Shown here piece by piece: positions 487 through 15,728 of a DNA stretch of 23,084 nucleotides (within the stretch, counting starts at the first letter, position 1; every line of letters begins with the position of its first letter). The notes under the pieces are model-generated. The model ran no database searches and was not told the DNA's origin. It worked only from the letters and a program-made list of their open reading frames with translations. The stretch comes from a virus: positions 1 through 23,084 of the IMG/VR virus record IMGVR_UViG_3300011436_000008; one strand, 5' to 3'. A program made the translations under genes and the position numbers.

Positions 487-1167
487 TTAGAACCATGACA
501 TCATTGCAAGCGGACCAGGGATGGCAATAACTTCCGTAACTGCAAGCGTGGCAAACGCCAAGTCATCGACGCCTACACCGCCCCACTGAATCGAATAGTC
601 TGCCGTTCCTGCCGTCGTCTGATGCTGCACGCCGCAAGTAAAGTTGCCGGCCAAGTCGGTCGTGCTGTCTTTGGTGGAGGTTGCGTGCACGGTCAGCGTT
701 GTGTTGGCGGTGACGCCGCTGTAACACACCGCAAAGGCCATAGAACTTCGCCCCGCATATTGGAGCGTTAGGATAGTTGGGTCGGCAGCCGCGTTATTGT
801 CTCGGGTATCGGAATCAATAACCATCAAGTTAGCGGCACCATCGAGGGAATACGCAGCGCCAAAAATATCTGTGGTGGTGCCCGATGTCAGGTCAACCGT
901 GATGGTCTGCACACCAGTGGGAATACCCGATCCCCAAAAGTAGGCGTAGGACCGTCCTGGTTCAGTTGTGGTATCGACGGCGGTGCAACAACGCTGGAGA
1001 ACCGCTGTGCCGTAAGTAACACCCACCACCAAGTCGGTTGACTCGGTGCCGTGCGCTAATAGGACAACAACGCCTTGGGGTGAGGCAGCATTGAAGCTGC
1101 TCCACGTCATTGGGTCCGACGTGTCGATGCGCAAGCTCTCGGTTATACCCGCAACGGTGACAGTCAT
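487..1167 (-). CDS. Predicted virion/tail-associated beta-sandwich protein
   Basis: A 226-residue protein, rich in Thr, Ala, Val and Gly with few charged residues, which is the composition of an all-beta phage structural protein. No signal peptide is seen. Its ATG overlaps the stop of the tailspike gene (TAATG at 1167), so the two are translationally coupled. Motifs such as GVVVLLAHG, VTYGTAVLQ and QWGGVGVDDLAFA suggest repeated beta strands. Proteins of this type are common next to tailspikes in environmental phages and may be surface or adhesin proteins. I do not recognise a named family; the virion role is inferred from composition and from its place between the spike and the repeat protein. 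Confidence 0.7.
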   Translation of the reverse strand: MTVTVAGITESLRIDTSDPMTWSSFNAASPQGVVVLLAHGTESTDLVVGVTYGTAVLQRCCTAVDTTTEPGRSYAYFWGSGIPTGVQTITVDLTSGTTTDIFGAAYSLDGAANLMVIDSDTRDNNAAADPTILTLQYAGRSSMAFAVCYSGVTANTTLTVHATSTKDSTTDLAGNFTCGVQHQTTAGTADYSIQWGGVGVDDLAFATLAVTEVIAIPGPLAMMSWF

Positions 1168-3491
1168 TAAAACATTACCGCCCCAAATAAAGTTGTCGGA
1201 GTATACTCATACGCGCCTATGTCCGGCAGTCCATAGATAGGAGCGCCTATGAAATCCACAGTTAATCCAACATCAACTCCTGCATTCTTAGCTGGTGATG
1301 CTGCTTGTAAAGTAAAATCGTCGTTGCCGGGATCGGTCAAAAGCGGGTCTGCATTGACCCCGTTGGTATCGTAAGTGGCTTGCCATGTGGCCCATGATGG
1401 AAACGCGCCATTGTGATTGATGTTAGGCGCTCCGTCTGCCCGCCAATGTAGATTGTAGTCGATAGTTGCCGCCGACTGCGTGACCATGTTCAAAGTGCGG
1501 CGGGTATCGGTGGCAACAATAAGATTATTCCGCATGTCAAACGCGGTTAAATTATCCGCGATTTTCACCTCTTGCTGAGTCGTTCCGCCGTTCTTCCAGA
1601 TGGTGTTATTCCAAATCGTTAGGCTAAGAGTGCCGGCGCCCTTGGTCTGCTCAGTGATACCCGATGACGTTTCGGCAGTATTGTTGCCGTAAATCACGTT
1701 GGAATAAATCGCATAGACAACATTGGTCGAACTGTTTTGTCCTGCCTCGACGCCGGAACTGGCATTGCCGTAAATCTCGTTGCGGTAGACGTTAGCGGAG
1801 CCGATTAACTTGATGCCATCACCATAAAGGTGCCCGTAAATCGTATTTTGGTAAATGTTTGTTACGACTGCGCTAGTAAGAACATATATTCCGTGACTTA
1901 ATCCCGCTGTGTTGCCAACATGGGTATTGTCGTAAATTGTATTGCCGAAGATGTTAAACAAACCCAAATAACCCTGAATACCACTGTACTGTTGGTTATT
2001 AAAAACCGAAACCAACCCATTCCCGGTGATCGTGTTGTTTTTCAGTTCACCACCGACCGAGTAAGCGTTGTCGACCCAAATACCCCATCCGCCGTTGTTT
2101 CTGATTGTGCAGCTATCAACGATTGCGTTTATCGCTGTGGTCGATCCTCTTAAATCTATTCCGTCTAGTGCAGATCGTTCAAGGATGCAGTTTTGAACGA
2201 TGTTATTGGTTACGGTCACGCTGCCAACGACGATGGAGTGAGAATTGCCATCTCTCAATGTCAATCCGTCAATCGTGATATTCGTTTTATCGTTGGTGTA
2301 AATTGCCTCGGCACGTTGGCCGACTTCCATTGTATAACCTGCGGGATCATCGTCGCCAGTTGTCCGAATATAAACCTGCCCGCCACCTGCATCCCAAAAG
2401 AATGTTCCTGCGGTTAGATTGTTTTTAGTAGTGATTACCTCGCCCAACCGGGTATCGGTTTCATAAACTATACTAGGTTGTACGCTAACCACTTTTTTGT
2501 AGGCGTCGAAATTGGTCGATGACCCCAATGCGCTCAAGCCGGATGTATAGATAGTACCTATTACGGTATCGGTAATCGCTTCAGTAAACACAAACCATTC
2601 ATCGTAATTTAACGCGCCGTCAGCAGCGCCTATAAAAGCAAGAGACTGCGCGGTATTTAGAGCGACTGAGGTGCGAGTAACCGTAGTTGATTCCTTGACA
2701 CCATCTATCCAAAACGATATTTCGTCATCGGCACCTGCGTTTGCGACGTTTTCACCGTTCCATCTAAGGACAACATGGTGCCATCCATCGCCGGTGTACG
2801 CAGCGCCCGCTTGGTCGATTGTGGCCGTGCCGCCAGCGGAATAGACTCGCGCTCTAAATTTACCGATAGTTCCGCTGCCCGCAATCAACCATCCCCTACT
2901 TGAAAAATCGCTATGCGCTGCCATTGAACGAAAGGCGGCAAAATTACCCTTGATGTTTATCCAGCCGCCAATAGTAAAACCCGTCGTTGTACCTTTGAAT
3001 GGAAAGGTCGCAGACTCATTTGCTAGTGTGATAAAGGCGTTGTCACTGGTCGTTGGGGTTGCTATCGAATATGTCCCTTCATGGTGCGTAGCCGATTGGG
3101 CTGCTGATCCTGCCCATGTAAGATTATTAACCCCGTTACCATCGAGTGATGGCGAAGCAGCATCCTCAAAATACCAGTATGAAAGTGGCATTGGCGAAAG
3201 CGGCACAACGGTAACGATGTTTTCAAGTGTCCAACCCGTTACAATATCGGAGCCGCTAATGATTGGCGCAGCCCCGCTGCCGTATGTGCCTAGGGTGATG
3301 ACATTACCGGCGCTACCCGATGATGGCATTGTCAGCATCTCGCGCCAAACTTCACCCTTCTTGAACAGGATCGAATCACCGGCAGAGAACGACGACCCAT
3401 TGACCTTGGCAATGGTTTTCCACGCCAAGGCTTCACTCAAGCCGGTATCGCCATCGTCACCGGTTGTAAAGTCAACGTAGTAAATCGCCAC
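1167..3491 (-). CDS. Tailspike-like right-handed beta-helix protein with inserted LamG domain
   Basis: A 774-residue protein. Residues 1-90 look like the start of a secreted pectate-lyase-superfamily beta-helix (YYVDFTTGDDGDTG, AWKTIAKVN, GDSILFKKGEVWRE). Residues about 103-318 form a LamG/concanavalin-like domain (SYWYFEDAASP, GFTIGGWINI, DGWHHVVLRWNG, ISFWIDGVKE). Residues about 400-700 return to short NN-rich beta-helix rungs (NITIDGLTLRDGNSHSI, NNTITGNGL, NNTIWKNGG). This is the architecture of a polysaccharide-binding or -degrading phage spike. The start is GTG at 3491, three bases after the preceding stop, with no strong Shine-Dalgarno. Catalytic residues cannot be assigned. Binding or cleavage of host capsule or exopolysaccharide is inferred from the fold. 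Confidence 0.85.
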   Translation of the reverse strand: MAIYYVDFTTGDDGDTGLSEALAWKTIAKVNGSSFSAGDSILFKKGEVWREMLTMPSSGSAGNVITLGTYGSGAAPIISGSDIVTGWTLENIVTVVPLSPMPLSYWYFEDAASPSLDGNGVNNLTWAGSAAQSATHHEGTYSIATPTTSDNAFITLANESATFPFKGTTTGFTIGGWINIKGNFAAFRSMAAHSDFSSRGWLIAGSGTIGKFRARVYSAGGTATIDQAGAAYTGDGWHHVVLRWNGENVANAGADDEISFWIDGVKESTTVTRTSVALNTAQSLAFIGAADGALNYDEWFVFTEAITDTVIGTIYTSGLSALGSSTNFDAYKKVVSVQPSIVYETDTRLGEVITTKNNLTAGTFFWDAGGGQVYIRTTGDDDPAGYTMEVGQRAEAIYTNDKTNITIDGLTLRDGNSHSIVVGSVTVTNNIVQNCILERSALDGIDLRGSTTAINAIVDSCTIRNNGGWGIWVDNAYSVGGELKNNTITGNGLVSVFNNQQYSGIQGYLGLFNIFGNTIYDNTHVGNTAGLSHGIYVLTSAVVTNIYQNTIYGHLYGDGIKLIGSANVYRNEIYGNASSGVEAGQNSSTNVVYAIYSNVIYGNNTAETSSGITEQTKGAGTLSLTIWNNTIWKNGGTTQQEVKIADNLTAFDMRNNLIVATDTRRTLNMVTQSAATIDYNLHWRADGAPNINHNGAFPSWATWQATYDTNGVNADPLLTDPGNDDFTLQAASPAKNAGVDVGLTVDFIGAPIYGLPDIGAYEYTPTTLFGAVMF

Positions 3492-4502: not shown

Positions 4503-5083
4503 AAGCAAATCTGCGCCATTAAGTTTGTGGAGCCTAAATCTCCGCCGGAAAAATCGTCTATCGAGTCAGAACCCGCTGCTCCGGTAAATAACGGAATACG
4601 AACGCCAATAGAGCCAGCCGCAGTAATGTCACCATTACTTACGGTTAGAATCGTTCCGCCGTTGCGTTTTAAGGTAAGGTTGGTGCCATTGACTTCAAAA
4701 TAAATAACGTCATTCAACTGCCACGGTGTAGTATCTTCTCCCGATATTGCGGTTGGAGTGCCGGTAATGATTTTAAGTATTTGCGTCCGTGGAATAGAAG
4801 GAACATGCTGTGCTTGGTACATTGTTCCGACGCCATCGTTAAGACGCAGAATTAAACCCCAAGTTGCAGCCAAGCCTGCTGTTAACGCTGAGATGGTGTA
4901 TTGCACAAACTGATTCGCGCCTGGAGTAGCAGCATTCCAGTAGGCGCCAGAATCACCACCACTACTTGACGAACATAATTTTTGACTAATAATTTGGACA
5001 ACATTGTATCCACTTAGCGTAGACCAATTGCCGCCAGCGGGATTCGCATCTGCTCTATTAAAGTCATCAGTTATGACAGCCAT
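4499..5083 (-). CDS. LamG/concanavalin-like carbohydrate-binding phage protein
   Basis: A 194-residue protein starting ITDDFNRADANPAGGNWSTL, a common opening in phage proteins with a jelly-roll (concanavalin-A-like/LamG) fold. The strands AATWGLILRLNDGVGTMYQA and DVIYFEVNGTNLTLKRNGG fit the family, and IDDFSGGDLG near the end matches the usual closing strand. The ATG overlaps the stop of the pectate-lyase-like gene (TAATG at 5083). It probably binds sugar or packs on the tail near the lyase and spike. No catalytic residues are evident. Confidence 0.75.
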   Translation of the reverse strand: MAVITDDFNRADANPAGGNWSTLSGYNVVQIISQKLCSSSSGGDSGAYWNAATPGANQFVQYTISALTAGLAATWGLILRLNDGVGTMYQAQHVPSIPRTQILKIITGTPTAISGEDTTPWQLNDVIYFEVNGTNLTLKRNGGTILTVSNGDITAAGSIGVRIPLFTGAAGSDSIDDFSGGDLGSTNLMAQICL

Positions 5084-6144
5084 TAGGGCAACTCCACGTC
5101 TTGCCAGCCCGATCCGGCCTCAACCGCCGCTAGTAGTGTGGCGTCAGCAGTTTCTGCTGTGTAAGAATAAAAGCTCGATGGGTTAAAAATACTTTCGGGA
5201 TTTAGTTCCTCAACGGTTGCACCATCCAGGAGATACTCGCCAATGCACTTAGCATTAGCAGCCAAGCCATTAACTGTAGTGTTGAGCAGTAGGGTGACAC
5301 CGCTTATATGTTTTTTGTAAATGTCATTCTCGGAATAAAATTTAACATTGTCACCCGCGTACACTCCTGAAATAGTGCGGTCCAGATAATTGTTGAAAGC
5401 ATGTACCTTCGCCCAATGAGCCAGCGGATTTCTGACGTAAATCGCTTGGTAATGGTTATGATGCAGCGTAACCGTTATGCCGTCATCTACAGTCTCACCG
5501 AATGTAGAGATAAGTATAGCCTTATCGCCCCAACCCAACTCAGCCGCGCCCGTACCACCATCACCGCCGCCAGAAGTCGTCGGGAATTTGCACCACGATA
5601 CGGTAATTCCGTATGGCGCCACGTCGTTGCTGGGGTTGGCTGTACCCGATCCAATGTAGATGATTTCATCCGTCGCGTCATGGAATGTGCAATGATCTAT
5701 CCAAACATTTGAAGCATCCTCCCCAACAGCTATCATGCAATTGCTTGTGTTGTCCTCCATCTTGATGTTGTGAATAATGACATTAGAAATGGGTCCATTA
5801 CTTCCCGCATCCCACACGCCAATCGTAATACCCTTGTTTGAAATCGTGATGTCCTGTCCCCTGCCATCGATTGTTTTGTTCGATCTGATACCAATGACTG
5901 TTGACAGTGTAATAGTTCCTGATACGTCGAAGACGATCCAATAAGGCGTTGTTGACTCCGCCCCTGCGCGAAGCGAACCGGCGCCGGAATCGTTTAGGTT
6001 GGTGACGTGATAGAGTGCGCCGCCAGCGCCGCCGGTGGTGTCTTTGCCAAAGCCGACGACGTTGGCAAGGATGTTCTCCCATGGTCGCAGATTGCTGGAA
6101 CCTGCCGGCAAACCCGGCGCTTCGTAAGTTACTGTAGGCGCCAC
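5083..6144 (-). CDS. Pectate lyase-like protein, polysaccharide lyase family 1 fold
   Basis: With the GTG start at 6144 (overlapping the upstream stop as TAGTG, with a purine-rich GGGGATGGGA before it) the protein has 353 residues. The N-terminus GFGKDTTGGAGGALYHVTNL NDSGAGSLR is the standard family opening. Then come NKTIDGRGQDITI (about 89-101), SNVWIDHCTFHDATDE (145-160) with Asp residues at calcium-site positions, a Lys at about 208 (GWGDKAILI), VTLHHNHY (225-232) and YVRNPLAHWAKVHAFNNYLD (236-255). The first Arg of the family RxPxxR motif is kept (R238), but the second is His (H243). There is no signal peptide, as expected for a virion-borne enzyme. It likely cleaves an acidic polysaccharide by beta-elimination, perhaps host slime or pectin-like polymer. 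Activity is unproven. Confidence 0.85.
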   Translation of the reverse strand: MAPTVTYEAPGLPAGSSNLRPWENILANVVGFGKDTTGGAGGALYHVTNLNDSGAGSLRAGAESTTPYWIVFDVSGTITLSTVIGIRSNKTIDGRGQDITISNKGITIGVWDAGSNGPISNVIIHNIKMEDNTSNCMIAVGEDASNVWIDHCTFHDATDEIIYIGSGTANPSNDVAPYGITVSWCKFPTTSGGGDGGTGAAELGWGDKAILISTFGETVDDGITVTLHHNHYQAIYVRNPLAHWAKVHAFNNYLDRTISGVYAGDNVKFYSENDIYKKHISGVTLLLNTTVNGLAANAKCIGEYLLDGATVEELNPESIFNPSSFYSYTAETADATLLAAVEAGSGWQDVELP

Positions 6145-6356
6145 TATCCCATCCCCGCGCCGGTCATGCCCAGTTTTCCCGGGTCCATGCTGAACTCGAA
6201 ATGTCTTCGACCGCATACTTTGCAACGCTCCACCACGAGGTCCACCTTCAATTGGTGCGGCTCGCAGTTCTCTTTTATTCGGCAACACTCGACCGGCCTA
6301 TCTTCTCGTGGAATGTAAGTGGCGCGGTAAAGTTCGCCTAATTCGGTGTCGCTCAT
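6144..6356 (-). CDS. Small cysteine-rich hypothetical protein
   Basis: A 70-residue protein whose ATG overlaps the upstream stop (ATGA). It contains CCRIKENC and, about 15 residues later, CKVCGRRHFEF, enough Cys and His for one zinc site. The C-terminus is Gly/Met-rich (GKLGMTGAGMG), and its stop overlaps the GTG of the lyase gene. Phages often carry such small zinc proteins between tail genes. The function is unknown. Confidence 0.7.
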   Translation of the reverse strand: MSDTELGELYRATYIPREDRPVECCRIKENCEPHQLKVDLVVERCKVCGRRHFEFSMDPGKLGMTGAGMG

Positions 6357-6784
6357 GTAAGCGTAAAAATGTTGCCGGCTACGCCAACGGCGGCGTTGCT
6401 AAACTTGGCGCTGAATGTCTCGCCGTTGCCCAACGTCAAAGGTGACCCATAATCCCACCAGCATATTAAGCCAGTAGCCACGGTGCTATTTTGAAGCACG
6501 ACATACTGCCAGCTTTGCCAATCGGCAGCGGTTGCCGTCCACATGAGCGACGTACCGCGAAGCCGTCCAGTGCCCGCTGGACTCTCATCGTATGTGTTGA
6601 GCGTGTCCTCACCGCCAGCCGTATAGCCGGTGCCGGTCGGTTGCGTCACGTCGGTTAGTACCGTGTCGGTGTTGACGATTGGATCGGTGGCGCGTACTAA
6701 AGCAATCTTCAGCGCGTCCGTATTAAGATTGACGCCAAGCCCAATCTGCTCGGCAAAGTCGAGTATCTTATTGTATGTTGCCAT
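6353..6784 (-). CDS. Conserved phage tail-region protein
   Basis: A 143-residue protein. I chose the ATG at 6784 over the GTG three bases upstream, because AGGGGG lies about 5 bases before it. The opening ATYNKILDFAEQIGLGVNLN followed by TDALKIALVRATD and TGTGYTAGGEDTL is a pattern widely seen in tailed-phage structural modules. It is an all-beta protein without membrane segments. The role is likely virion assembly or tail, inferred from family recurrence and position. Confidence 0.8.
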   Translation of the reverse strand: MATYNKILDFAEQIGLGVNLNTDALKIALVRATDPIVNTDTVLTDVTQPTGTGYTAGGEDTLNTYDESPAGTGRLRGTSLMWTATAADWQSWQYVVLQNSTVATGLICWWDYGSPLTLGNGETFSAKFSNAAVGVAGNIFTLT

Positions 6785-6792
6785 CACTCCCC

Positions 6793-7248
6793 CTAAAGTT
6801 TATGCGCCGCCTTGAACGCCTCGAAGGCTTTCTTTACTGCGTCGAGTTCCGCCTGCTTTGCCGTCTTTTCCGCTCCAAGCTTGTCAATCTCCCTGCTGTA
6901 CTGCGCGCCTAGTTCCCCAAGCTGCTCCATCTTGCGGTCATGATCCGCTCTAGTCTTGGCAAACTCGGCAGAAAGCGCCGCTGTCTTTGTAGCCATACCG
7001 TTAGTGAAATCGTCAAACGCTTTACGCGCCACGTCGGTTTCCCGCGCCAGCTTCGCCTTGCTGGTTTCGAGCACGGCTATCTCGTCGGCGAGCGCCTTCT
7101 TGCGTGACTCGTCCTCTTTGGTCGCCTTGGCGAATGCCTTCTCGGCGGCTTCCGCCGATTCGACAATCTCGATACACGAGGTTATCGCGGGGGCGAACTG
7201 CATCATCGGCTTTAACGCTTCTCTGATTTGTATGGCTGTCATGGTCAT
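6793..7248 (-). CDS. Coiled-coil protein
   Basis: A 151-residue protein. After a short N-terminal region (MTMTAIQIREALKPMMQFAP) it is almost entirely a charged heptad-like helix from about residue 30 to 148 (ADEIAVLETSKAKLARETDV, SREIDKLGAEKTAKQAELDA). AGGGGG is 5 bases before the ATG, and the gene follows the membrane-anchored gene by 9 bases. A coiled coil beside a membrane-anchored protein could be a spanin-like, chaperone or fibre-assembly factor, but none of these can be shown. Six-frame shadows on the plus strand come from its Ala/Lys-rich codons. Confidence 0.75.
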   Translation of the reverse strand: MTMTAIQIREALKPMMQFAPAITSCIEIVESAEAAEKAFAKATKEDESRKKALADEIAVLETSKAKLARETDVARKAFDDFTNGMATKTAALSAEFAKTRADHDRKMEQLGELGAQYSREIDKLGAEKTAKQAELDAVKKAFEAFKAAHKL

Positions 7249-7257
7249 GGAAGCCCC

Positions 7258-7743
7258 CTATGGAGTGGTGTAACCGATTATCGTGATTTTGGTTAATTGT
7301 GTGGCGATGCCCAACACGCAGATTGCATGTCCGGCGGTGATATGGATTGGCGTTTGAAGCTGAATGATTTGCACCGACTGCGCATTGGTCACGCCGACGT
7401 ATTTGGTGCTTACGTTGTCGGCTGGCAATACCGCCGTGGTGCTAGTGCCGCAATTTGTCCCGGTGCCCGACTGGATAGACCACTGATTCGCCGTCGAAGT
7501 CGTGGACTGATTGATAATCGTGGTGATGTGATGCTGTTTGTCGGTAACAACGGCTTTTATTTCGGCTAATGAGGCGCCGACACCCGCGTGTCCCACGGTC
7601 CATTCCTGGGCGGCGCTGCCCTGGCGGGTGTACCATTGCGCGTCGGCTGGTCGCGTGTTCATCATTAACGCACTCAACCCGAACCACACCAACACAACAA
7701 GAAGTGCTATACCGGCGCGATACTCTTGGATTACTTTTAACAT
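7258..7743 (-). CDS. Membrane-anchored phage protein with beta-rich ectodomain
   Basis: The start is the ATG at 7743: AAGGAG lies 5 bases before it, and it overlaps the end of the methyltransferase gene. A longer in-frame GTG reading would add an unlikely basic extension. The 161 residues begin MLKVIQEYRAGIALLVVLVW, continuing into a hydrophobic helix (about residues 9-27), so it is a signal anchor or uncleaved signal peptide. After it come 130 Thr/Ser/Gln-rich residues of beta character (STKYVGVTNAQSVQIIQLQ, ITAGHAICVLGIATQ). Such single-pass proteins in late operons may act at the host membrane during lysis or assembly. No lipobox is evident. Confidence 0.7.
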   Translation of the reverse strand: MLKVIQEYRAGIALLVVLVWFGLSALMMNTRPADAQWYTRQGSAAQEWTVGHAGVGASLAEIKAVVTDKQHHITTIINQSTTSTANQWSIQSGTGTNCGTSTTAVLPADNVSTKYVGVTNAQSVQIIQLQTPIHITAGHAICVLGIATQLTKITIIGYTTP

Positions 7744-8357
7744 GAGTGCTCCTTCGGCAGTCCTAAAACGACGCGGCTTTGAGTTCCATCGCACCACTCT
7801 TTAATTTGCCAACGGCTTTCAATCTTGGCTTGCCACCAGTGAGGCGATTCGATGGTAAGGTGCAAATCCTCGATAATCTCCATGTCGCTAAAATCTGCCG
7901 TGCTGGAAGGTACATGAGCGATGGTAAGAAGCCCGCCTTTGCGCGTAATCTTCGCCATGCCGTCCAGTGTCCGGTCGACATACTGCGGCGGTATATGCTC
8001 CAGCACATCGCAACAAAGTATCCAGTCGAATACCGGGAGGCCGTCGAGTTCCCACATATTGCCTTCGATGAATGGCAAGTCCACCTCACGCACGTCGACG
8101 AAATCGAACAACGTCACGTTGAGAACCCTGGGTTCTCCCCCTGGCATTTTCTTTTTATAGTCAGCAAGGTATTTACCAGCCCGCCCGGTACCGCAACCCA
8201 AGTCGATAACGGTGTCGCCCTGCTCTCGCGCAGAAGAAAAGAGAAAGTAAGCGGCTACACGCTCGCCTGGCGAGCCTCGGCGATAGGACTTATGCTGATA
8301 GGCACGCCAATACTTGCGCTTCTCCGATTCGAGGTCGGCTAAACTAGACTGCATCAT
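7737..8357 (-). CDS. Class I SAM-dependent methyltransferase
   Basis: With the ATG at 8357 (GGAAG about 8 bases upstream) the protein has 206 residues; an in-frame ATG at 8384 and a GTG at 8402 are alternatives. Motif I is clear (VIDLGCGTGRAGKYLADY, about 50-67), an acidic loop follows (LFDFVDVREVDLP), and the motif IV/post-region is CCDVLEHIPP (115-124), then KGGLLTIAHVP. This is the UbiE/BioC/Methyltransf_11-type Rossmann fold. The substrate is not given by the sequence: a small molecule, sugar or protein is possible, and no DNA-recognition DPPY/NPPF motif is present. It sits in a block with a Rossmann-like and a metal-cluster protein, which suggests a shared modification task. Confidence 0.88.
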   Translation of the reverse strand: MMQSSLADLESEKRKYWRAYQHKSYRRGSPGERVAAYFLFSSAREQGDTVIDLGCGTGRAGKYLADYKKKMPGGEPRVLNVTLFDFVDVREVDLPFIEGNMWELDGLPVFDWILCCDVLEHIPPQYVDRTLDGMAKITRKGGLLTIAHVPSSTADFSDMEIIEDLHLTIESPHWWQAKIESRWQIKEWCDGTQSRVVLGLPKEHSC

Positions 8358-8556
8358 CTGCGCGATCTTCCACCCAACCACCATACTCTTTGGTCGTTGC
8401 ACTGCTTGGGCTTGCCGGTCTTTGGAAACGGCAGATAGTGTTGCCGGCTTTGTTGACTGCCATGTGCGCGTTGGTCCAGGTGTGGTCGGCTATCTTAGCC
8501 TTGGCCCATTCTTCAGCGGCTATGCGCCCTACGGCGGTATCAGCGAAATTTGCCAT
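8344..8556 (-). CDS. Small hypothetical protein (70 aa)
   Basis: GGGAGG stands about 8 bases before the ATG at 8556, and the 3' end overlaps the start of the methyltransferase gene. The sequence is an Ala-rich helix (MANFADTAVGRIAAEEWAKA) followed by a Cys/Arg segment (GNTICRFQRP) and an acidic tail. No family is recognised. Its strong ribosome-binding site and correct operon spacing make it a likely real gene. Confidence 0.65.
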   Translation of the reverse strand: MANFADTAVGRIAAEEWAKAKIADHTWTNAHMAVNKAGNTICRFQRPASPSSATTKEYGGWVEDRADDAV

Positions 8557-8560
8557 TGTA

Positions 8561-8833
8561 TTATTCCTCCCTTAGCGAGCATTGCCCGCGCCTGATAAGT
8601 GAAATGAGATGGTCATCTTCGGCTGGCCCGGCGTTGTGCAAACAAAACCCTTCCTTGATGGAACCATACGGGTCGGCAAGTAGGATAGGCATGTCGGTGT
8701 AGCGTTTGTCGTAGACGGTGCAGCGCGTAGACATCGGCATACCAGCGATACCGCCAATATCGAGATACTGGCACTTGAAGTTGCCTATCCAGCAACAGTT
8801 GCCGCATTGATTACAGTGTCCAGAGATACTCAC
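8561..8833 (-). CDS. YkgJ-type CxxCxxCC metal-cluster protein
   Basis: A 90-residue protein starting at GTG 8833 (AGGATGG upstream), overlapping the previous gene by 23 bases. It has HCNQCGNCC at residues 6-14, then KCQYLD at 20-25 and RCTVYDKRYTDMP at 37-49, with further Cys near the end (FCLHN, QCSLREE). This is the YkgJ/UPF0153 putative zinc- or iron-chelating pattern (CxxCxxCC ... C ... CxxY). Known family members are small, often of unknown substrate, and are found beside glycan or sugar-modification genes. Here it lies between a Rossmann-like protein and a methyltransferase. Confidence 0.8.
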   Translation of the reverse strand: MSISGHCNQCGNCCWIGNFKCQYLDIGGIAGMPMSTRCTVYDKRYTDMPILLADPYGSIKEGFCLHNAGPAEDDHLISLIRRGQCSLREE

Positions 8834-9395
8834 GAGTCCATCCTGACATGCTATGCAATGTTTTCTTAAACTCCGGGTTCCGGTTTACTTCCGCCTTGAA
8901 CTGGCTCTGTACTTTCGAGTATCCGCCATTGATCGTGTCGTCCGGTTGCCAAAAGCACGGTGTTGAATCTGTAGGGCATCCACAAAGTACGATAGGTTGG
9001 CAACCCATCAAGTGAGCTACTTGCGCTGCGAACAAACCTGAAAGAGCAAAAATAGGTGTCAGTCCCATCCATTGGTGCCATTCCCTTTCTCCATATAAGC
9101 CGCCGTCATGTACCCTGAAATCCTTATTGCCATATCCCTTGCTAGTTGCATCGCGCCTGAGTCCTACCCAACAATCAAGTTTCGGAGTGTGAAGAGAAAC
9201 CATATGATCCACATGAGGAAGATAGACGCCAACATCGTTAGCAGCAAAGATAACGCATCGGCCCATTGCTGACTCGGCGGCCTTAACTTCCTCAAAGACT
9301 CCCTTCGCATTCCCGGCGACTATCGCCGGCTGGCCGCGAAGTTCTCCTAAGAGTTCTTCGCAGCCTTCGCCAGTGTATCCGCTCGACTCCCACAC
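8811..9395 (-). CDS. Rossmann-like phage protein, DUF115/Maf-like (possible glycan modification)
   Basis: The true start is probably GTG at 9395, overlapping the upstream stop (TAGTG); a longer in-frame reading to 9650 is out-of-phase noise over the neighbouring gene. The 194 residues read as a nucleotide-type fold: QPAIVAGNAKGVFEEVKAAE, CVIFAANDVGVYLPHVDHMV, SLHTPKLDCWVGLR, then LSGLFAAQVAHLMGCQPIVL with CGCPTDS after it, ending in SMSGWTREYLW. The NDVG...DHxVSLH and GLFAAQVAHLMG...LCG elements recall DUF115/flagellin-Maf and related phage proteins. I infer a sugar-nucleotide or pterin-type ligand; no catalytic residue is certain. Confidence 0.65.
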   Translation of the reverse strand: MWESSGYTGEGCEELLGELRGQPAIVAGNAKGVFEEVKAAESAMGRCVIFAANDVGVYLPHVDHMVSLHTPKLDCWVGLRRDATSKGYGNKDFRVHDGGLYGEREWHQWMGLTPIFALSGLFAAQVAHLMGCQPIVLCGCPTDSTPCFWQPDDTINGGYSKVQSQFKAEVNRNPEFKKTLHSMSGWTREYLWTL

Positions 9396-9886
9396 TACGC
9401 CACAAAGCGAAATGTGTAATAGAATATCTTCGTGGCTACCGGAACAACCGCCGCCCAAGTGGCGATTACAACCTGGTCCGTTGTCGGCTTGTAGTGGTGC
9501 CCGGTGGCGTTGATCGTGGCAATCGCCGCCACGTCGCAATCGAACGCCGTGATGTACTTGTCTGCCGTGGCGCTGGTGCCGATTGCCAGGGTCAAGCTGG
9601 CGCCCGCTGAGGCGCCCATAGCCTCGGTCGTTACCGTGGCACCGATGCACTTCCAGCCGGCCCGGTGGATAAACAGCTTGACTGTGCCGCTGGCCGTTTC
9701 TGACGTTCCGACAACGTAGGTGCCGGCGCCGACCGTGTGCGAGTCACTGATAATAATTTCCTCGCCGAACCGCTCCGTTGACCGGAATGGCCTGCCGAGA
9801 ATGTCGTGGTTCTGATACGACGTTGAGCGAAGCTCGCTCGCCGTGCCACGACTCGATAGCAATACCCGCTTGATGAACTGAAACAT
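9395..9886 (-). CDS. Predicted head-associated structural protein
   Basis: A 163-residue protein with GAGAGG about 9 bases before its ATG, lying 58 bases downstream of the major capsid gene. The N-terminus is basic (MFQFIKRVLLSSRG), the middle is acidic and then a Gly/Ala/Thr-rich beta region (GASAGASLTLAIGTSATADK, TDQVVIATWAAVVPVATKIF). Position right after the capsid gene and composition fit a head decoration or head-closure protein. No named family is recognised. Confidence 0.7.
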   Translation of the reverse strand: MFQFIKRVLLSSRGTASELRSTSYQNHDILGRPFRSTERFGEEIIISDSHTVGAGTYVVGTSETASGTVKLFIHRAGWKCIGATVTTEAMGASAGASLTLAIGTSATADKYITAFDCDVAAIATINATGHHYKPTTDQVVIATWAAVVPVATKIFYYTFRFVA

Positions 9887-9900
9887 ATGAATGTCCTCTC

Positions 9901-9925
9901 TAGGGCGTTCTCCATTTCCACCCTA
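9901..9925 (-). promoter_or_regulatory. Stem-loop between capsid gene and next gene
   Basis: A 7-bp stem (TAGGGTG with CGCCCTA on the minus strand, one G-U pair) closes an 11-base loop, 18 bases after the capsid stop. No U-tract follows, so it is unlikely to be a strong terminator. It could moderate expression downstream of the abundant capsid mRNA or protect its 3' end. Confidence 0.3.
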
Positions 9926-9943
9926 ATTAGCTGAAGTTGTTGT

Positions 9944-10909
9944 TTAATTTTCCTTGGCGATAATCAAAACGACTGCACCTTCCCACAAGCGCACGGCGCC
10001 AAACGTCGCACTTATGTAGACCTGATTGTCATAGTTGAGGTCGTCACGTTCACTCACCCTCGGCGTGAACTCCTGACCACTCGAAAAACCTACTGCGCTT
10101 TTCGACATCGCAATCATGCTTCGGCTGTTAGCGTCGTACATCGGCAGGATGGTCTGCAATGCGACGGCGGTGGCGTCGTCCACCCAAGTGGTTTGATCGC
10201 CATAATCCTGAACCAATGTCCAATCGAACCCTTGCCACGCATGACCATTCATTGAACCACTGTCCATGATTCTCGGAGTGCTGGTAAAATCTGAAGATGA
10301 CGCCTGCGTGATTGCCATGATGTCGGTTTCTTGCCCGGCACCGTAAAACATCACACGGTTTTGTGGGCCGGTCGGCACATAGCCTTTAGTCAACAGCACG
10401 CCTGCGCTGATGATGACCGTCAGGTTGATTGCCGTGTTGGTCGTGCCGACGATCCGGCTGGTAAGCATGGCCTGGGTGCCATAGGTCATTTGACCTGTGG
10501 TGCCGGAAGTCGTAATTACCATGGCATCGCCTACCGCCGCCGATAGTAACGCCGCATCACGCGAGCGCACCGCAGCCGCCGAGAGTTCGCGCACATACTC
10601 GGACTGCGGGTTGATAAGCGCCCGCACCAAGTCGACGTTTTTGCTGACCAAGCAGGCGCCGCCAATAGACTGCACCGGACAGCCGCGCCGGGTGTGGTTG
10701 GGGTTGAGAATAGGTGTGGTGCTATGCGCGCCGATTGGCACCAGCATGACACCGCCCATCCGTTCCCAGGTGTCGATCGCTGCGCTAACGCCCATGTGCT
10801 TGACGGCTGGAGCAATCTTGTCGAATACGACGGCTTCGCGCTGCTCCATGTTGGCGAGAATGTTTTGGTTGAATTGATGGACATATGCCATCGGAAAACT
10901 GGTACTCAT
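9944..10909 (-). CDS. Major capsid protein
   Basis: The 321-residue length and sequence features match the capsid family seen in phiKMV-like and marine podoviruses. It opens MSTSFPMAYVHQFNQNILAN with a helical N-arm, has WERMGGVMLVPIGAHST around residues 48-64, and ends in ANSRSMIAMSKSAVGFSSGQ, DLNYDNQVYISATFGAVRLW, EGAVVLIIAKEN. That C-terminal segment is the typical beta-strand signature of HK97-fold capsids of this type. It forms the icosahedral head around the scaffold. AAAGGA lies 9 bases before the ATG. It is preceded by a 170-base hairpin-rich leader and followed by a probable head protein. Confidence 0.9.
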   Translation of the reverse strand: MSTSFPMAYVHQFNQNILANMEQREAVVFDKIAPAVKHMGVSAAIDTWERMGGVMLVPIGAHSTTPILNPNHTRRGCPVQSIGGACLVSKNVDLVRALINPQSEYVRELSAAAVRSRDAALLSAAVGDAMVITTSGTTGQMTYGTQAMLTSRIVGTTNTAINLTVIISAGVLLTKGYVPTGPQNRVMFYGAGQETDIMAITQASSSDFTSTPRIMDSGSMNGHAWQGFDWTLVQDYGDQTTWVDDATAVALQTILPMYDANSRSMIAMSKSAVGFSSGQEFTPRVSERDDLNYDNQVYISATFGAVRLWEGAVVLIIAKEN

Positions 10910-10936
10910 GGATTTATCCTTTCAGGGTTATATACT

Positions 10937-11074
10937 CTCGGCAATTAAGCGAGACCGAGAATCGCCCGGTGGAGGTGCCCGCATTGCACGGACTCCATCT
11001 GACTCGTCGTGAGTCAACGCCACGGCTTTCCGTGGAGCCATCGGACTAACCTTGAAAGGTTAGGTGCCCGAAAT
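10937..11074 (-). promoter_or_regulatory. Multi-hairpin leader upstream of major capsid gene
   Basis: A 170-base gap sits before the capsid gene. On the minus strand it can form, in transcript order: CTAACCTT/AAGGTTAG at 11,063-11,046 (2-base spacer), CCACGG-aaag-CCGTGG at 11,035-11,020, TGACTC-acgac-GAGTCA at 11,016-11,000, then GGAG/CTCC with GTGC/GCAC at 10,996-10,971. All four are near perfect. The motif GGTGCCCG (plus-strand reading) occurs at both ends (10,974 and 11,064). This points to a structured 5' leader or small RNA controlling capsid expression. No known ribozyme or riboswitch core was recognised. A TATATA motif is present close to the capsid start, but without a -35. Confidence 0.45.
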
Positions 11075-11105
11075 GTCTGCTACCTATCCGGCATCGGTAG
11101 CAGAC
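11075..11105 (-). promoter_or_regulatory. Perfect 10-bp stem-loop at a gene end
   Basis: GTCTGCTACC and GGTAGCAGAC flank an 11-base loop, and the minus-strand stop codon of the small gene before it lies within the stem. No U-run follows on the minus strand, so a classic intrinsic terminator is unlikely. It may slow ribosomes or mark an RNA-processing boundary before the capsid leader. Confidence 0.4.
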
Positions 11106-11286
11106 TTCTTTGGTCATAGCGTAGCGAGCGTTGAATCATGCGAATACTCTCGTTCTCCTCAAAATAGCCGGAGTCTTTTGAAGGTACAGATTGCTCTATC
11201 GCATGGGTCGAGCAACCGAGATGCCCTAGACGCGCCGCAATAACGACGCTTAAACGCTCTGTGGGATTCAATTCTTTGCAACACAT
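11080..11286 (-). CDS. Small hypothetical protein (68 aa)
   Basis: Starts at an ATG 3 bases after the preceding stop; the Shine-Dalgarno is weak. The residues (MCCKELNPTERLSVVIAARL ... IRMIQRSLRYDQRSLLP) suggest a short basic helix after a Cys-rich start. No family is recognised. Its place before the structured leader could make it part of the scaffold-capsid unit, but it may also be a spurious frame. Confidence 0.45.
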   Translation of the reverse strand: MCCKELNPTERLSVVIAARLGHLGCSTHAIEQSVPSKDSGYFEENESIRMIQRSLRYDQRSLLPMPDR

Positions 11287-11289
11287 TAC

Positions 11290-11517
11290 TCAATCGTCTT
11301 TTTCACCCTTGCCCGCCGGCGCGTCGCCGCGATAGTAGCGGTCAACGATCTCGTAGGGCACTCCACTTAGGCGCACGGCATCGCTTCTGCTAATACCGTT
11401 CTTTTTCATTCTGCCGATTGCTATCGTCATCGCGCCTGACTCCCAAACTTCCTTTTTAACGTCTATTGAGTGCTGGCGCTTCATAAGAGTTTTTTTGTCG
11501 ATCATTACTTCAGACAT
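11290..11517 (-). CDS. Small basic hypothetical protein with possible helix-turn-helix
   Basis: A 75-residue protein with AGGAG about 7 bases before its ATG. The middle (MTIAIGRMKKNGISRSDAVR LSGVPYEIVDRYYRG) resembles a helix-turn-helix pair with a GIS/SGVP turn, which would fit DNA or RNA binding. The C-terminus is charged (GKGEKDD). It sits between scaffold and capsid. No named family is recognised, and the DNA-binding reading is inference. Confidence 0.6.
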   Translation of the reverse strand: MSEVMIDKKTLMKRQHSIDVKKEVWESGAMTIAIGRMKKNGISRSDAVRLSGVPYEIVDRYYRGDAPAGKGEKDD

Positions 11518-14743: not shown

Positions 14744-14767
14744 ATGATGGAGAATAGAAAACACTAA
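14744..14767 (+). other. Possible 7-codon leader ORF coupled to next gene
   Basis: ATGATGGAG starts a frame of seven codons (MMENRKH) whose TAA overlaps the ATG of the 241-residue gene (TAATG). GGAG within it lies about 14 bases before that ATG, too far for an ideal ribosome site. So it is either a weak Shine-Dalgarno or an upstream peptide coupling translation. Confidence 0.3.
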
Positions 14768-15492
14768 TGTTCGACGCGGAATTTATAAAGCGAACCCACG
14801 AACCGATCATCAAGGAATTAGAAATCGAGATCAATCGGGCGAGGTATAAAATACGATACACGCTAGGATACACAAGCGAACATGACAAAGTAGATGATCT
14901 CGTGAGAAAGAACTTAAAAATTTGTTTAGTACGAGATAGGTGGAATGACATTCTTGAACAGTATTACGGTCACGCGATAAACTGGCCCATTCAAAAAGAA
15001 TGGCTAGCTACATTTAACTACGACAACACACGCTTTTCCGGCATTGATCGTAAATCTCTTAAAGTCCACTTTAACACTTACAGATACCTGCAATCTATTA
15101 TTCCTTGCGTGTATTCCTATCAGATGGATCAACGCGGATTATTTTACTGGCGTGATATTTTGCGAGTTATTCCCAAAAGACCGCGTTGCAGAATATGTGG
15201 TGCGCCGCCAACGAGGTGGGATAGAACCGCTCATGGCAAACGTAAAGGCGATGATAATGACAGATATAACTGCCTCGGCGGAGAATCATACGTTTACGCC
15301 GAACGGTTACGGAAATGGAGGGAAGAATATCGAATAAAACAAGAGAAGAAGAAAGGTATTTGGCAAGCACGAATAGCGGCTCTTGAAGCACAATATAAAA
15401 TCAAGGAGGACAAAAAATGTCTGCAAGAAACAAGACAACTGATCTGGAAAATAAGGAAGTATCTACGGAATCCGAACAGCCTCGCTCTCTAG
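14767..15492 (+). CDS. Unknown AT-rich protein with possible zinc knuckle
   Basis: A 241-residue, strongly basic, Tyr/Lys/Arg-rich protein, transcribed opposite to the late module. The N-terminal half is helical (EPIIKELEIEINRARYKIRY). The middle has WRDILRVIPKRPRCRICGAP followed about 20 residues later by YNCLGG, a possible incomplete zinc knuckle. A long charged helix follows (YAERLRKWREEYRIKQEKKK). It is more AT-rich than its neighbours, suggesting recent acquisition. Its last 76 bases overlap the next gene. It is not related to any family I recognise; nucleic-acid binding is possible from charge and Cys motif. Confidence 0.7.
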   Translation: MFDAEFIKRTHEPIIKELEIEINRARYKIRYTLGYTSEHDKVDDLVRKNLKICLVRDRWNDILEQYYGHAINWPIQKEWLATFNYDNTRFSGIDRKSLKVHFNTYRYLQSIIPCVYSYQMDQRGLFYWRDILRVIPKRPRCRICGAPPTRWDRTAHGKRKGDDNDRYNCLGGESYVYAERLRKWREEYRIKQEKKKGIWQARIAALEAQYKIKEDKKCLQETRQLIWKIRKYLRNPNSLAL

Positions 15493-15728
15493 CGATTGCC
15501 CGCAAGGGATTAAACACCTCGAAAGACTTCGCCAACTTCATGGCGGCAATGATGTCTGATTTAGTCGAGGGGAAAGTTTCACCCGGCGTCGGCAATGCAA
15601 GCTGCAACGCAGGCGGAAAGCTATTGAAGATTGTCGAGATGGAATACAAGTACGGCACCAAGGATGACAAAGGCAATCCGAATAAGACATTGACGCTTGC
15701 CTTCGAGAGCACAGATGCCAAAGAATGA
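15417..15728 (+). CDS. Conserved small phage protein (103 aa)
   Basis: AAGGAGG sits about 6 bases before the ATG at 15417. The sequence SLAIARKGLNTSKDFANFMA followed by SDLVEGKVSPGVGNASCNAG and GKLLKIVEMEYKYGTKD matches a recurring small phage protein whose members carry 'GKxxPGVxNAxxNAxGKxLKxVExEYKYG'. It has no known enzymatic role; in other phages it is found beside terminases or small regulators. It overlaps both neighbours. Confidence 0.75.
   Translation: MSARNKTTDLENKEVSTESEQPRSLAIARKGLNTSKDFANFMAAMMSDLVEGKVSPGVGNASCNAGGKLLKIVEMEYKYGTKDDKGNPNKTLTLAFESTDAKE

Follow-up and report, generated by a model that had tools for sequence, protein, structure and literature searches.

A probable glycan-modification cassette of variable content in the late virion operon of a T7-like podovirus

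The window, by which we mean the whole 23,084-base virus record that was analysed, belongs to a T7-like podovirus, as judged from profile matches of its portal protein (PF12236, 1.3e-82) and its capsid protein. Five open reading frames, here called genes A to E, occupy positions 7258-9395 of the minus strand between the capsid-adjacent gene and the tail genes, as an earlier sequence-only reading had described. These genes are packed tightly, mostly overlapping and otherwise a few bases apart, and no promoter-like sites were seen on their strand within 6700-11300. The locus consists of the following features:

9944..10909, minus strand: major capsid protein (PF19821, 4.7e-27; phrog_3437, 1.6e-37)
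9395..9886, minus strand: g9395, which adjoins the capsid gene and borders the insertion on its upstream side; a candidate virion acceptor
8811..9395, minus strand: gene A, 194 aa, predicted DUF115/MptE/Maf/sialyltransferase fold, probable glycosyltransferase-type enzyme and cassette core (AlphaFold2, Foldseek, alignment)
8561..8833, minus strand: gene B, a protein of 90 aa with a CxxCGxCC motif that probably binds Fe-S or Zn; optional cargo (alignment of 17 sequences)
8344..8556, minus strand: gene C, 70 aa, core protein of the podovirus lineage (position in A-lacking phages)
7737..8357, minus strand: gene D, class I SAM methyltransferase, ATG at 8357 (PF13489, 1.5e-9)
7258..7743, minus strand: gene E, small variable protein with a predicted signal peptide, not cassette-specific (leader in alignment)
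6793-7248: coiled-coil gene, the other border of the A-E block

Close relatives of the window were obtained by a capsid-based scan. One 32.4 kb contig (L001) is almost identical to it, and the order g9395-A-B-C-D is common to L003, L005, L006, L012 and L020; the start codon of A is GTG in the window and ATG in L005. Between relatives, dN/dS values for A, B, C and D are 0.04-0.19, and these values, together with the order A-B-C-D kept behind g9395, indicate that the four are real, selected genes. The capsid gene is adjoined by g9395 in relatives both with and without A. Elsewhere in the window, the tail-side genes include a pectate lyase domain protein (5083-6288, minus strand; PF00544, 1.4e-14), a possible depolymerase; a 774 aa right-handed beta-helix protein (1167-3491, minus strand; PF13229, 6.4e-10) is likely a tail spike. 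Two plus-strand open reading frames of 241 and 103 aa (14767-15728) lie between the minus-strand portal and terminase genes, and the 241 aa frame has no Pfam match.

By sequence, gene A is a member of a phage family that has no curated model of its own. We collected 32 A loci with wider alignments and built a 32-row alignment; the family was found in about 30 phage contigs, where it lies for the most part among genes for the virion. Invariant in all 32 rows are G28, G139 and the stretch M183-S-G-W186, while H69, S119, A127, G131, L137, P141, S182, T187 and E189 are nearly invariant. The window protein scores 12.6 bits (E 0.12) against PF01973 (DUF115/MptE-like), for which the curated cut-off is 34.6, and has no family in PHROGs or NCBIfam. 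MptE-like is the sole recurrent Pfam match of the family, found weakly in 13 of the 32 members with a best value of 4.4e-5.

The structure of A was predicted by AlphaFold2 from 31 of the 32 alignment rows, one phage-collection row being left out, and the model has a pLDDT of 88.5 and a pTM of 0.88. Foldseek placed human ST6GalNAc2 and ST8SiaIII, M. jannaschii MptE (8sd5), Magnetospirillum Maf (5mu5) and Campylobacter CstII (1ro7) among its top PDB folds. All of the top 21 PDB matches fall in the GT42/GT29/Maf/MptE class, with probabilities of 0.90-1.00 (mostly 0.95-1.0), TM values of about 0.42-0.55 and E-values from 1.3e-3 to about 2e-2, none being below 0.001. A sequence-profile search of the PDB likewise ranked GT42 sialyltransferases first, weakly and without significance, and a viral structure library returned several proteins named MptE-like along with unnamed phage proteins, with E-values down to 4e-11. 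The description of A as a DUF115/Maf-like Rossmann protein in the sequence-only reading is supported by the predicted fold, although the protein's own Pfam score lies far below the cut-off. On the predicted model, A is probably a protein of glycosyltransferase-type fold with a putative enzyme activity; MptE, itself of this fold, works as a pterin pyrophosphokinase. A resembles Maf, MptE and DUF115 proteins (PF01973) as well as GT42 and GT29 sialyltransferases in its predicted fold, in a GN-type N-terminal loop and in an SG...A...G....LCG core. Unlike them, it is a short single domain of ~190 aa that falls below the Pfam cut-off and carries its own invariant C-terminal motif, MSGW(T)xE.

Among 50,697 cultured phage records, the sole phage with A is Paracoccus phage vB_PkoS_Pkon1, whose p38 is an A homologue (29% identity) encoded directly behind the major capsid gene, as A is found close behind the capsid gene here. 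In contrast to the window, Pkon1 is a siphovirus and p38 (L015:6959-7825) has a long C-terminal extension after the A domain; neither a GT nor a D match was found within the 14.5 kb of Pkon1 sequence covered (L015). A similar extension is present in an A gene on a contig of Xaviernesmea oryzae (L097). Bacterial genomes scanned with close A patterns gave no match, and a wider bacterial-genome scan gave three loci. In the literature searched, nothing relevant was found on DUF115 or MptE-like proteins in phages.

Gene D is by sequence a class I SAM methyltransferase, as had been proposed: it matches PF13489 at 1.5e-9 (38.2 bits, cut-off 27) and contains the glycine-rich SAM motif DLGCGTGRAG. The A proteins of L003, L004, L005 and L012 are 80-86% identical to that of the window, whereas D of the window and D of its relatives share just 38-45% identity, which indicates that a distantly related homologue has taken the place of D at this site. 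Behind D, the relatives L003, L006, L012 and L020 carry a further gene, GT, which belongs to the glycosyltransferase family phrog_1962 (3e-29) and matches glycogenin/galactosyltransferase structures of the GT8 type (1e-4 to 1e-3). GT is absent from the window, from its near-twin L001 (32 kb) and from L005. Near GT or tail genes of several relatives there are also small proteins with repeated VVPVRE/GVVPVRE-type peptides (L076:9189-9440, L079:9784-10164, L078:11390-11674, L084:2694-2885).

For a comparison of gene content, a set of podoviruses was chosen through gene C, regardless of A. Of 20 contigs with A, 12 have GT or D no more than 6 kb away, vs none of nine A-lacking ones (Fisher p 0.003, uncorrected for relatedness and with contigs being fragments). 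In the subset where the sequence continues for 4 kb or more downstream the counts are 10/13 and 0/5 (p 0.007, relatedness again uncorrected), and over whole records GT is present in 10 of 17 podoviruses with A and in none of five without it, figures that are likewise uncorrected for relatedness and include one contig-end fragment among the ten.

The same company recurs outside this lineage, where A lies behind the capsid gene or among head or tail genes. A is near GT in phages whose head and tail genes are unrelated (L033, L034, L035, L036 and L041), and a D-type methyltransferase accompanies it in L035, L040, L043 and L044, at a distance of 6 kb in the last. In L040:5445-7035 two A domains stand in tandem, and the second runs in one open reading frame into a GT8-like domain. 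A Deltaproteobacteria MAG fragment with phage-tail-like flanks (L098) holds A followed by GT, a hexapeptide-transferase-like gene, a DegT-like gene and D, the hexapeptide-transferase-like and DegT-like names resting on sequence resemblance to L040, where the counterparts scored as GT2 and DegT_DnrJ_EryC1; L040 holds the same set. Other neighbours of A are a sulfotransferase (L033), NDP-sugar C-methyltransferase domains (L029), a hexapeptide acyltransferase (L024, L042) and FkbM (L093). Directly upstream of A in L046 (4219-5669) are 2OG-Fe(II) oxygenase and radical SAM-SPASM genes, which suggests further chemistry in some cassettes.

Genes B, C and E behave differently from this group, and the view of all five genes as a coupled block holds for A and D, together with the GT that the window lacks, but not for the remainder, which also occur without A. 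Inheritance of the five as one unit was rejected, C adjoining g9395 in podoviruses without A. The distance from the g9395 frame to the C frame is -39 to 253 bases in podoviruses without A and 571 to 3054 bases in those with it; the place of C directly behind g9395 in the former and farther away in the latter marks it as a core gene and A as an insertion at that junction. A helix and three strands are predicted for C (AlphaFold2, pLDDT 81), a fold search with this model found no PDB match, and C has no PHROGs or NCBIfam family; it probably serves the virion or its assembly and stands outside the enzyme cassette. Gene E had been read as a single-pass membrane protein. Its relatives share a short leader in the alignment, MKKLILL...PADAQ, and a cleaved signal peptide is a better reading of this sequence than a membrane anchor. 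E is also present in L052, which lacks A.

Gene B has eight invariant cysteines across 17 aligned sequences. Its CxxCGxCC motif, followed by C-x-V-Y/H-x-x-R and more conserved cysteines, resembles the CxxCxxCC family (PF03692: YkgJ, YcgN) and FliB, a flagellin methylase that binds a [4Fe-4S] cluster via CX4CX3CC, a motif its authors relate to the CX2CX2CC of PF03692 (PMC8598068). The YkgJ-like label given to B earlier is thus upheld by the motif but not by a profile: no significant match was found in Pfam, PHROGs or NCBIfam, and PF03692 gave none for B of the window and 0.078 as the best E-value of ten relatives. B differs from both known groups in this respect and as a phage subfamily with eight invariant cysteines and a CSL end. 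By analogy with FliB, it may hold an Fe-S cluster; its sequence makes it a probable Fe-S or Zn binding protein, which would be separate from the glycan cassette. In podoviruses without A, B homologues lie between terminase and portal; in L059-L062, L064 and L065, B precedes the portal gene and, where the sequence reaches that far, follows the terminase, often ending long open frames. Association of B with A is not significant in the podoviruses selected by gene C (p 0.096), and a FliB-like Fe-S methylation unit of B and D was dropped, since B stands alone elsewhere and lacks this association. Relatives of B and C were absent from the 50,697 cultured phage records.

We favour, with moderate confidence, the view that the locus is a reduced and variable glycan-modification cassette, set at the junction of g9395 and C in the late virion operon, that modifies a virion protein in the cytoplasm. 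Its core is best read as A, D and the GT missing here, forming a virion glycosylation cassette of a kind already known, in which the uncharacterised A family is the new part. The sequence-only reading was right in placing enzyme-like genes amid those of the virion. Joint modification of a glycan, a virion protein or a surface component, as it envisaged, fits A and D by fold, by sugar-enzyme neighbours and by the fusion frame, but not the whole five-gene block. In the proposed mechanism A, through a putative catalysis, would attach a sugar, along with the GT8-like GT in sister phages, and D would O-methylate that sugar. The absence of GT from the window weighs against this view, as A and D would here have to suffice or draw on a host enzyme. 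A, D and GT have no evident membrane segment and no gtrABC-type partners, and would do their work in the cytoplasm at a late stage of infection, before lysis. We infer that the acceptor would be a virion protein, namely the capsid, a g9395-type decoration protein or the tail. The outcome would be particles with a variable, methyl-capped glycan, and the benefit could be particle masking or altered adsorption or stability.

Other explanations must be weighed against this one. The cassette might instead modify a host surface glycan, serving receptor masking, superinfection exclusion or serotype conversion. Phages do encode host-surface glycan modifiers (gtr operons), and the signal peptide of E means that this protein could act outside the cytoplasm. 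We consider such a role unlikely, given that E occurs without A, that A, D and GT show neither the membrane segments nor the partners of gtrABC type noted above, and that the cassette lies within the late virion operon, close to genes for the head or tail. Comparably improbable is that A, B, D and E are unlinked cargo, brought together by a hot spot for insertion behind the capsid genes and serving no common pathway. Such a hot spot would account for the presence of B, C and E without A, for the swap of D alone in the window and for the finding of GT in just about half of the A-bearing podoviruses; it does not sit well with the repeated finding of A beside GT and D in sipho-like phages that are unrelated, as well as in the bacterial-genome fragment, including the fusion frame, nor with the lack of both GT and D in the A-lacking podoviruses examined. 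B, C and E do occur independently in relatives, but A with GT or D does not follow that pattern. Finally, A as an MptE-like pyrophosphokinase or other nucleotide-dependent small-molecule enzyme, with D methylating a small molecule or nucleic acid, is very improbable, for despite the recurrent MptE-like Pfam match and the rank of 8sd5 among the top folds, sugar enzymes abound in the neighbourhoods of A, no genes of a pterin or nucleotide pathway were seen there, and A is fused to a GT8-like domain in L040.

The proposed modification of a virion protein by a glycan cassette has a precedent in mycobacteriophage Corndog, where the portal and protease genes flank those for an O-methyltransferase, two glycosyltransferases and an N-acetylglucosaminyltransferase (PMC4351075). 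The sugar-transfer and methyltransferase proteins are made in infected cells and were not identified in virions, and capsid modification was proposed (PMC4351075). Capsids of Che8, also a mycobacteriophage, are described as carrying glycans (Freeman et al. 2023, as cited in PMC11256854). As with gp35-38 of Corndog, methyltransferase and glycosyltransferase genes stand inside a virion operon in sister phages of the window: a glycosyltransferase of known type and a methyltransferase are both present in L003, L006, L012 and L020, and the window has A and D, with GT absent. The cassettes described here belong to other phages with other head genes, and at their core stands the A family with its predicted sialyltransferase/MptE-like fold; the comparison is one of gene content.

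It is probable that phages with A attach sugars to their own particles, as is known for a few phages of mycobacteria. To our knowledge, no virion protein of this podovirus lineage is recorded as glycosylated. A broader proposal, which we put forward tentatively and hold to be less likely than the cassette reading itself, is that A founds a new phage glycosyltransferase family, with a sialyltransferase/Maf fold and the motif MSGWTxE, which would lie at the heart of sugar-tailoring cassettes that can be exchanged and are found among the head-tail genes of tailed phages without close kinship; A would glycosylate a virion protein, and D and other cargo would diversify the glycan as a fast-changing coat. 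That cargo is exchanged at one site, D having been replaced and GT acquired or lost, suggests that change in the glycan is selected for. As far as we know, virion glycosylation is recorded from few cultured phages, mainly those of mycobacteria. A role of A in it can be tested directly in the cultured A-bearing phage Pkon1. A would represent a new family of enzymes and give a means of searching for cassettes of this kind, and if it marks virion glycosylation in uncultivated podo- and siphoviruses, glycosylation of phage particles would be far more widespread than recorded.
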